Shown here: positions 7,495 to 12,253 of the stretch, piece by piece
How the letters are laid out: every line of letters begins with the position of its first letter
Numbering within the stretch: the stretch's first letter is position 1
Origin: Candidatus Gastranaerophilales bacterium
GTDB taxonomy: Bacteria; Cyanobacteriota; Vampirovibrionia; Gastranaerophilales; Gastranaerophilaceae
DNA length: 36,112 bases
Direction of reading: 5' to 3'
Assembly (NCBI GenBank): GCA_944325075.1
Contig: CALUYU010000019.1
Location: 1 to 36,112, forward strand
Position numbers and translations under genes: made by a program
The notes under the pieces: model-generated
What the model saw: only the letters and a program-made list of their open reading frames with translations
The model's database searches: none
Told to the model about the DNA's origin: nothing

Positions 7495-7834
7495 AGTTTT
7501 TACGGAGAATTTTCATAAGTTGTCTTGTTGCGAAATGTATTTTACCGGATGATTGATTAAAATGTCGGGCGCTGTAAGAAGTAATAAAAATAGAAGAGAA
7601 TGTTATACAAAAAGCATAAGGAGTATGGATTTTAATTTTGGTTATTGTAGGCGCAGGGTTTTCGCGTTCTATGGGCACCTCACTATAACACTGTGCTTCC
7701 CTTGATACATATAAATAGTATTAAAAACAAATGATGCCGTAGTTTCAGTCCAACAACAAAAAATATTAATTCTTCAAATATTTTCTTTAAGTTCAGCCCG
7801 GCGGAGCATCATCTAAAAGGGTGCTGTGCCCCAC
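7495..7834. other. Intergenic region with repeat remnants
   Basis: About 340 bases with no convincing gene. A 61-codon minus-strand frame exists but has no ribosome binding site. On the plus strand a short hydrophobic frame (WILILVIVGAGFSR near 7625-7670) has no start, so it may be a relic of a membrane protein. GTTTCAGTCCAACAA near 7741-7755 resembles half of the GTTGGG hairpin repeat at 36-54. Confidence 0.5.
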
Positions 7835-7863
7835 TTGAAAAAACAGAAAAAATAGTATATAAT
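7835..7863 (+). promoter_or_regulatory. Consensus sigma-70 promoter for prepilin B
   Basis: TTGAAA (7835-7840), a 17-base spacer and a perfect TATAAT (7858-7863). The ATG with the best ribosome binding site follows 24 bases later. The 20 bases GAAAAAATAGTATATAATAA (7846-7865) recur exactly at 36093-36112, so this promoter is part of a dispersed cassette. Confidence 0.85.
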
Positions 7864-7886
7864 AAAAGAAAAAAGGGGGTAAACAC

Positions 7887-7994
7887 ATGGAAAAGTCAAG
7901 TATAGTATGGTATACGGGGGGGGGGGTAACGAACCTCAAGGGAGACAAGGGCTTTTGTCAAAATTGCTTTCCTCCATATCAAAGTGTTCTGTAG
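7887..7994 (+). CDS. Out-of-phase leader frame of prepilin B
   Basis: ATG 7887 has the best ribosome binding site at this locus (AAAAAAGGGGG, seven-base spacer) and lies 24 bases after a consensus promoter. Read as given, it runs through the 11-G tract and stops at 7992-7994 after 35 codons. One extra G, or two fewer, would put it in frame with prepilin B and give a 304-residue fusion. I therefore read it as the true start of prepilin B in an 'off' phase, not as a separate peptide. Confidence 0.45.
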   Translation: MEKSSIVWYTGGGVTNLKGDKGFCQNCFPPYQSVL

Positions 7995-8800
7995 CAAATA
8001 ATGTAGGTAGGGGAGGGATTCCCAAAACTACAAAAAACTCCTACTCGCCTTGCAGGACCGCATTCACTTTGGCTGAGGTACTTATAACTTTAGGCATAAT
8101 CGGAGTTGTTGCTGCTATGATTTTGCCAACTTTGATAGCCAATTATCAGAAACAAGAAGTTGTAACAAGATTAAAATATTCATTTAATATTTTTAGTAAT
8201 ATGATACGCCGTGCTGAGGCCGACTATGGAAATATTACTGAATGGGGGCTTGAGTTTGAAGGTGGAGAAGAGTATGATATTGAAAATAATAGAATTTTGC
8301 GTGCGGAGTTTGTCTCAAAATACATGCTTCCTTATCTAAATGGTGCTCACTTTTCCGCTGCTAAATCTCTGGCCGATTGTGGATATAAAAGAACAATTAC
8401 ATATCCTGCAGGATCACCTTGGATTTCTATTGATAAGGCTGCACCAATATTAGAATTTCCAAACGGAATAATTGCTCTGATTAGCGGAGCAACTGGTACT
8501 GACTCATCAGACCCAAACAAAAAATTGGTTTTTGGTTTTACTTTTGTTATTGATATAAATGGCCCGAGCGGACAAAATTGTTTAGGTCGTGACGTTTTTT
8601 TTGTGACTATTCCTTTTGCAGTAAATACACGAGTTTTATTTTTCCAATATTATTCTCTTGATGCTCAAAAAAGGATGACAATTAGTAAAAGTAGAAGCTC
8701 GAGACCTTATTTGATAAATGACTGTAAAACTTACGGAGCAAATTGCGGATATTTAATTCAGCAGGATGGTTGGCAGATTAAAGATGACTATCCGTGGTAA
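7907..8800 (+). CDS. Prepilin-like protein B with phase-variable 5' end
   Basis: Residues 52-70 carry A-F-T-L-A-E-V-L-I-T-L-G-I-I-G-V-V-A-A, the cleavage site and hydrophobic helix of a type IV prepilin or pseudopilin. The globular part ends Y-L-I-Q-Q-D-G-W-Q-I-K-D-D-Y-P-W, close to the end of prepilin A. The words before the core, YSPCRTAFTLAEV, also match NSPRKFAFTLAEV of A. ATG 7907 has no ribosome binding site and no other Met precedes the core. The well-equipped ATG 7887 is out of frame because of an 11-G run at 7916-7926. The protein would sit in a surface pilus or a pseudopilus. A hairpin follows the stop. Confidence 0.8.
   Translation: MVYGGGGNEPQGRQGLLSKLLSSISKCSVANNVGRGGIPKTTKNSYSPCRTAFTLAEVLITLGIIGVVAAMILPTLIANYQKQEVVTRLKYSFNIFSNMIRRAEADYGNITEWGLEFEGGEEYDIENNRILRAEFVSKYMLPYLNGAHFSAAKSLADCGYKRTITYPAGSPWISIDKAAPILEFPNGIIALISGATGTDSSDPNKKLVFGFTFVIDINGPSGQNCLGRDVFFVTIPFAVNTRVLFFQYYSLDAQKRMTISKSRSSRPYLINDCKTYGANCGYLIQQDGWQIKDDYPW
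7916..7926 (+). repeat. 11-G homopolymer (candidate contingency tract)
   Basis: Eleven consecutive Gs in AT-rich DNA lie 27 bases inside the reading frame from ATG 7887. The three possible lengths modulo 3 decide whether that start reads into prepilin B. Similar poly-G tracts cause phase variation of surface genes in Campylobacter and other bacteria. Confidence 0.8.
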
Positions 8801-11602: not shown

Positions 11603-12253
11603 ATGATTAAAGGAACTAAGAACGCGTTTACTTTGGCAGAAGTATTGATTACGCTTGGTATTATCGGTGTTGTAGCAGCTATGACAATGCCTACATTGTT
11701 GAACTCTACTCAAGGTGCTCAATATAGAACTGCATTTAAGAAAGCTTTATCTGTATTATCTCAGGCTGTAGTTTTGAACGTAGCTCTTGATGACTATGAT
11801 TTGAGCCAAGCTACTGCTTCTGGTTCAGCAGAAACAGATGGAACTTCTGCATCATTGTATAACATGTTCAACAACAGAATGAACGTTGTAAGTACTTCTA
11901 ACGGTGAAGGTTGGGGACCTACTGATGCTAAATTTGGTGCTGATACTACTAGTAACTACACATTGTTCTTTAACGATGGTATTACTCTTACATTCCCTAA
12001 ATACAACATCGGTACAGGCAAAACTAGATCTGCTCAATGTACTGAAGTCAACAAATGTTATGGTGTAGTTGACGTTAACGGCAGCAAGAACCCTAACAAA
12101 CTTGTTACTTGTGATGGATCTACAGATTACAAAGCAACTGATGATGATTGTGTAGTATCTAATCCAACAGATATTTATCCGATTTACATGTATGATCAAA
12201 CAATTCTTCCTGCAACAGCTGCAGCTAGAGCTGTTATGTACAAAGGTAAATAA
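11603..12253 (+). CDS. Prepilin-like protein C (candidate major pilin)
   Basis: The 216-residue protein starts MIKGTKN-A|FTLAEVLITLGIIGVVAA, a textbook short-leader prepilin with cleavage before Phe. The globular domain is rich in small residues and has two Cys pairs (CTEVNKC; CDGSTDYKATDDDC), the second in the position of a pilin D-region disulphide loop. It lacks the DGWxIKDDYPW ending of A and B. Expression signals are complete: a consensus promoter, AACGGAGG with a normal spacer, and a terminator. Codon choice (GCT, ACT, AAC, GGT) is more uniform than in the neighbours, as in highly expressed genes. This is the best candidate for an abundant pilin or pseudopilin. It stands alone, with no assembly genes nearby. 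Confidence 0.88.
   Translation: MIKGTKNAFTLAEVLITLGIIGVVAAMTMPTLLNSTQGAQYRTAFKKALSVLSQAVVLNVALDDYDLSQATASGSAETDGTSASLYNMFNNRMNVVSTSNGEGWGPTDAKFGADTTSNYTLFFNDGITLTFPKYNIGTGKTRSAQCTEVNKCYGVVDVNGSKNPNKLVTCDGSTDYKATDDDCVVSNPTDIYPIYMYDQTILPATAAARAVMYKGK

Follow-up and report, generated by a model that had tools for sequence, protein, structure and literature searches.

Why does a prepilin-like gene of Candidatus Gastranaerophilales bacterium carry a promoter, a ribosome binding site and a start codon that lead into the wrong reading frame? We addressed this question in a stretch of 36,112 nucleotides (hereafter the window) and in the genome from which it derives (G000; other G numbers denote genomes of relatives, and L numbers denote loci). 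The original prediction for this gene was that a run of eleven Gs makes it phase variable, in the manner of a contingency locus. We followed this idea from the window locus itself to its paralogues, to the relatives of this bacterium, and to the explanations that compete with it.

A prepilin gene in another frame than its start codon

At the window locus (7833-8800, forward strand), a sigma-70-type promoter TTGAAA-17-TATAAT (7835-7863), with its -35 hexamer TTGAAA at 7835-7840 and its -10 hexamer TATAAT at 7858-7863, is followed by a ribosome binding site GGGGG (7875-7879, within AAGGGGGTAA) located 7 nt 5' of an ATG at 7887-7889. This start codon and the rest of the pre-tract leader, which encodes MEKSSIVWY and ends with two additional bases (7887-7915), run into a poly-G tract of eleven (7916-7926), a homopolymer of at least 9 placed early inside the coding region, 29 nt past the ATG. 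The number of codons open after the tract is 290, 0 or 22 in the three phases, and the phase given by 11 Gs is the one with 22, resulting in a short out-of-frame ORF of 35 codons plus stop (7887-7994; TAG at 7992-7994). An open prepilin frame spans 7907-8800 (297 aa), and ATG 7887 would be joined to it by 12 Gs, giving 304 aa, or by 9 Gs, giving 303 aa. The present state of the locus is therefore OFF, with one G short or two too many. An internal start at ATG 7907 was considered and rejected, as the preceding AAGTCAAGTATAGT holds no ribosome site.

On these points the original prediction was accurate: its coordinates for the promoter, ATG 7887, the 11-G tract and the stop agree with the sequence, as do the two tract lengths that it gave for connecting ATG 7887 to the prepilin and its statement that the upstream ATG 7907 is without a ribosome site. 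Its description of the ribosome site of ATG 7887 as strong was slightly generous; the site is present, but it reads GGGGG while the consensus of the corresponding cassettes in G000 is GGAGG.

The tract is followed by a leader that is open in the prepilin frame only (7927-8059) and, judging from the motif at its end, would be removed by prepilin peptidase. The prepilin body (8060-8800) comprises the cleavage/methylation motif A/FTLAEVLITLGIIGVVAAM, the mature domain and the stop. It scored above curated cut-offs for PF07963 (22.5 bits; cut-off 21.2) and TIGR02532 (17.0; cut-off 16.3), and a prepilin peptidase was found in G000 (PF01478, above cut-off). An AlphaFold model of the body built from 40 relatives had a mean pLDDT of 92, with a helix at 2-56 and then strands, and two conserved cysteines are located close to the C terminus. 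A Foldseek search of the modelled body against solved structures gave no significant hit, and a structure comparison had the solved pilins 3sok, 5vxx and 8uhf among its matches at low Z (2.3-3.6). The mature domain matched no Pfam family.

Two other prepilins lie in the window. The contig opens inside the leader of one of them (2-1222), whose frame is open from base 2 with no start seen. Another (11603-12253), beside the two switchable-looking prepilins, has a six-residue leader and no tract, and is probably constitutive.

A repeated design in the genome and in the family

A post-tract leader of 44 codons, such as that of the window locus, has a 10% probability of being open by chance, and the weight of the open-leader argument lies in many parallel loci rather than in the window locus alone. 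We counted 124 tracts of at least 10 G on either strand in the 2.26 Mb of G000, while 0.7 runs of at least 10 G or C were expected under a first-order Markov model with the base composition of the window (36% GC). The sequence stretches taken around the listed G000 tracts contained 118 distinct tracts of at least 9. A prepilin motif was found on the same strand within 750 nt in 81 of the 93 tracts of at least 10 that had 750 nt of downstream sequence, and on the reverse strand in none. Matches to the prepilin N-methylation family numbered 135 in G000. The expectation of a contingency locus in a pilin-like gene is supported, but its scale had been understated, with about 120 tracts, almost all of them before prepilins.

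The 5' cassette of the window locus (7833-7998, forward strand) recurs in dozens of further places in G000 and G011 at roughly 80-90% identity, and about 50 copies in G000 consist of promoter, ribosome site, ATG, nine codons, tract and leader. Among the 50 aligned copies, 48 have TATAAT with an upstream TTG hexamer, 49 have a ribosome site of the kind described above, and all have the same ATG-to-tract spacing of 29 nt. Three leader cassettes are recurrent in G000: family 1, that of the window, with 50 copies aligned (TTG...TATAAT, AAGGAGGTAAACAC, ATGGAAAAGTCAAGTATAGCANGGCATAC-Gn-TAACGAACCTCAAGGGAGACAAGG), family 2 (ATGCTAAAATTCAATCATAGTGCGNATTTCCCTGATA-Gn-CTAAGCTACACC), and family 3 (ATGCAAAACNCAATCATAG...TTTCCCTGATA-Gn-CAGACTAAGG). 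Leader cassettes that differ in sequence and follow the same design were present in other genera.

At one tract phase, a leader spanning 44 to 174 codons (the median over G000 leaders being 124 codons) links the start in frame to the prepilin in families 1 and 2, and 43 of 50 loci are open in this connecting phase all the way from the ATG into the prepilin. Dinucleotide shuffles of 49 G000 leaders gave 0.5 expected open; as these 49 loci were selected for being open, 43 of 50 is the figure free of this bias. Repeat-like pieces (e.g., CHPELVSGS, VGVKPQPT) are frequent in the leaders, which are open nonetheless. Family 3 is built differently, with the majority of loci unfused. In several of its loci, the leader ORF at n-1 terminates at GGAGGTATTTTATGA or a close variant, where the beginning of the prepilin ORF overlaps this stop, adjoining a good ribosome site (L036, L071, L085 and L095 in G000), a layout in which translational coupling is possible.

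Leader cassettes and pilin bodies do not always travel together. Bodies that are 73% identical are found behind cassettes of families 1 and 2, and the closest bodies being behind different cassettes suggests that 5' cassettes have been exchanged between pilin genes. Pairs of similar bodies (68-73% identical) with different leader cassettes include L106/L052, L111/L114 and L019/L071. The start or end of many G000 contigs lies close to a G-tract cassette, at a distance of a few hundred bases or less, probably due to the repetition of these cassettes.

In a further arrangement, observed in G021 (L238-L267), a short ORF comes after the tract, and an intrinsic-terminator-like hairpin (CCGTGCC...CACGGTGATTTTT) separates it from a prepilin that has its own GGAGG and ATG. 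Tract phase sets whether the leader ORF ends well upstream of the hairpin, immediately upstream of it, or inside it. In G000, the longest leader ORF of three family-1 loci (L027, L061, L089) ends at a similar hairpin and T run. In both genomes the arrangement looks like phase-variable transcription attenuation, which is a possible reading of the layout.

Frame-setting G tracts, early or internal, were also detected in three non-pilin ORFs of G000, in line with what a general mechanism of slippage acting on G runs would produce in this genome: a glycosyltransferase-like ORF (L009:1502), a radical SAM protein with a weak B12-binding match (L110, tract on the minus strand), and a phage tail collar protein (L118, tracts on the minus strand). 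Separately, G12 and C13 runs (L031 and L032, G000:C11:5825-5884) face each other about 35 bases apart upstream of a malonyl-CoA acyl carrier transacylase-like ORF.

Beyond G000, at least one tract of at least 10 G was present in 216 of the 287 genomes of the order Gastranaerophilales that are at least 90% complete; nine genomes had at least 100 tracts, with a maximum of 176, and about 33 by hand count had at least 50. Twelve genomes outside the window's family had few, with 0 to 2 tracts in eleven and 3 in one. The tract pattern spans the window's family within this order. Tract number followed prepilin number across 12 genomes (Spearman 0.87; 0.95 without G018), and prepilin-poor species, with 6 to 14 prepilins, had zero tracts. 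The exception was G018 (L298-L315), with 111 prepilins and one tract of at least 10 G; in the few of its loci that were read, leaders are short or the G run is 6 to 8 long, perhaps reflecting a decayed or differently controlled repertoire. Loss of mismatch repair was rejected as the cause of the tracts in G000, where mutS (866 aa) and mutL (597 aa) are open and intact.

Tract length, phase and rival explanations

Tract lengths, as read from assemblies, were 10, 11, 12, 13 or 14 in 36 family-1 loci of G000. These loci shared their length with the nearest paralogue in 39% of cases, compared to 44% by permutation. Given that nearest relatives match in length no more than by chance, the tract changes faster than its flanks, and inheritance of one length within the cassette family was rejected for want of a relatedness signal. 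Near-identical loci also differed: L221 and L222, with flanks 99.3% identical, have 9 and 10 Gs, and L069:7558 in G000 has 11 Gs and is OFF, while its 98.6% identical counterpart L134 in G011 has 10 Gs and is ON. Further cross-genome orthologue pairs were equal in length (12/12, 10/10). Such differences between genomes point to tract lability, which is a step short of switching inside one population. A search of 12 other species of the genus found the cassette and bodies of 65-67% similarity but no orthologue of the exact window locus. A length fixed at 11 among relatives, which the original prediction had named as the result that would speak against it, was not what we observed, and the frame-shifting homopolymer layout that it proposed is supported by promoter, start, tract, connecting frame and length variation among paralogues.

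The best explanation for these observations is slipped-strand phase variation of a large pilin repertoire, to which we assign a probability of about 0.84. Each locus consists of its own promoter, ribosome site and start, 7 to 20 codons, 10 to 14 Gs, a leader in fixed frame, and the prepilin, and the gain or loss of a single G in replication would bring the start in or out of frame with the prepilin. Tract and leader lie 5' of the prepilin peptidase site and would be discarded by cleavage, so that a change of three Gs would spare the mature pilin, which would be the same in every ON state. From the sequence, the tracts probably switch reversibly within a population and turn expression ON and OFF, while the leaders would be removed and the products would reach the surface as pilus subunits.

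Of 182 loci from seven genomes, a longest-ORF criterion scored 29 (16%) as ON, 134 as carrying a surplus G and 19 as lacking one; under a stricter connecting-frame criterion, G000 had 6 ON loci, 36 with a surplus G and 5 lacking one. Free switching would be expected to give equal OFF states, yet 134 loci were one G long and 19 one G short, with the window tract in the rarer OFF phase. The bias was present in cassettes with a usual length of 10, 11, 12 or 13, and is therefore one of phase rather than length. The prevailing length was 13 in family 1 and 11 in G014, and families 2 and 3 mostly had 10, together with flank-compensated 11 and 12; a purely mutational preference for one tract length is not favoured, as these lengths differ while the phase stays. 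A universal rule of one G beyond ON was also rejected, given that the usual phase in another genus (L221-L237) was one G below ON (7 of 10 loci).

The shared OFF phase of one G too many, unexplained as it is, leaves RNA-level slippage as the main rival. In a broad form that we consider doubtful, the length of ON plus one would be functional, slippage of RNA polymerase or ribosomes would yield a low random sample of about 100 pilins per cell without DNA change, DNA slippage would pick a few to be strongly ON, and in some genomes the tract would act via a leader peptide reaching the terminator, that is, by phase-variable attenuation. In a narrower form, which we hold to be improbable, RNA polymerase slippage or ribosomal -1 frameshifting would produce some full-length product from OFF DNA, and the usual length of ON plus one G would be the functional state, giving low stochastic expression of all pilins. 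This recoding would account for the prevalence of that phase in several unrelated leader cassettes and genera at different absolute lengths, and slippage runs that serve recoding are known from IS elements (PMC1088944). However, while phase is strongly biased across homologues, length is not fixed: it differs from paralogue to paralogue and between near-identical orthologues, some alleles being ON. The opposite prevailing phase in L221-L237 also argues against recoding, as does G021, where the phase reaching the terminator region is mostly n+1, and most slippage runs known so far consist of A or T (PMC3711429). Under slipped-strand phase variation, OFF as the usual state fits a repertoire of which few members are made at once.

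Two other explanations have very little probability in our assessment. The tracts could serve recombination, for example as G-quadruplex sites at which pilin bodies are shuffled among cassettes, with frame effects being incidental. A G-quadruplex near pilE promotes pilin recombination in Neisseria, and both the related bodies behind families 1 and 2 and the dozens of repeats of the 5' cassette would be in line with such a role, but it leaves unexplained why leaders are open over a median of 124 codons in the exact connecting frame, why the 29-nt distance from ATG to tract is conserved, and why coupled and terminator-bearing leaders exist. Equally far-fetched is an assembly or sequencing artefact in which real tracts are in frame and their lengths misread. 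Homopolymers are prone to error and the ends of many contigs lie no more than a few hundred bases from a tract, but such tracts are found in hundreds of independent assemblies of the family and hardly in sister families or prepilin-poor species. Misreading would also not be expected to give +1 in some genera and -1 in another at loci of defined gene context.

Comparison with known phase-variable systems

Homopolymer phase variation is mainly known from pathogens, whose genomes each contain a few tens of such loci with mixed functions. In the gut lineage studied here, which is cyanobacterial and non-photosynthetic, poly-G tracts appear to control about 100 prepilins, members of one structural surface family; several independent leader designs are found among its genera, and mismatch repair is intact. 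We know of no case in which about 100 members of one structural family are under homopolymer phase variation. Our literature search found no published description of phase variation in Gastranaerophilales, which is weak evidence given the thin coverage of subscription journals and preprints; for Melainabacteria and phase variation, the sole match was a survey of flagellin diversity, and literature on the group mentioned type IV pilus genes in general terms only. If slipped-strand phase variation operates as proposed, single cells of these uncultured symbionts would differ in pilus composition, with a bearing on host recognition, phage resistance and adhesion. Automatic annotation would call most such genes truncated, frameshifted or wrongly started.

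The proteins resemble type IV prepilins and type II secretion pseudopilins (PF07963, TIGR02532) in their N-terminal motif and, as predicted by the model of the window body, in a long helix followed by a mainly strand domain. Leaders of type IV prepilins before the cleavage motif are usually short, whereas the leaders described here are often 50 to 170 residues long and contain the tract and repeat-derived sequence.

Phase-variable genes of Campylobacter are mostly those of enzymes that modify surface structures, and this genus is not known to have a MutS/MutL system. The pilin loci are similar to the Campylobacter poly-G/C genes (PMC8355987) in that G homopolymers in a low-GC genome would switch surface-related genes. 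They differ in encoding structural pilins and in the intact mutS and mutL of G000; given that mismatch repair is intact, slippage may be slower than in Campylobacter-like organisms.

In Neisseria, pilC carries G tracts of 9-20, pglA carries G tracts of 9-21 and opa carries CTTCT repeats, and putative phase-variable loci of all repeat kinds number at most 54 in the gonococcus and at most 47 in the meningococcus, with a range of 36-82 in N. lactamica (PMC5953494). As in pilC, pglA and opa, an early repeat in a gene of surface or pilus function sets the frame in the loci described here. However, a few genes of unrelated families are concerned in Neisseria, while one prepilin superfamily is repeated about 100 times in this unrelated lineage. 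There is also a likeness in content to pilE/pilS, a repertoire of many pilin bodies of which few are expressed, as would also be the case here. The two differ in design: pilS copies are silent donors that recombine into one expressed gene, whereas here each copy has a promoter, a ribosome site and a start of its own.
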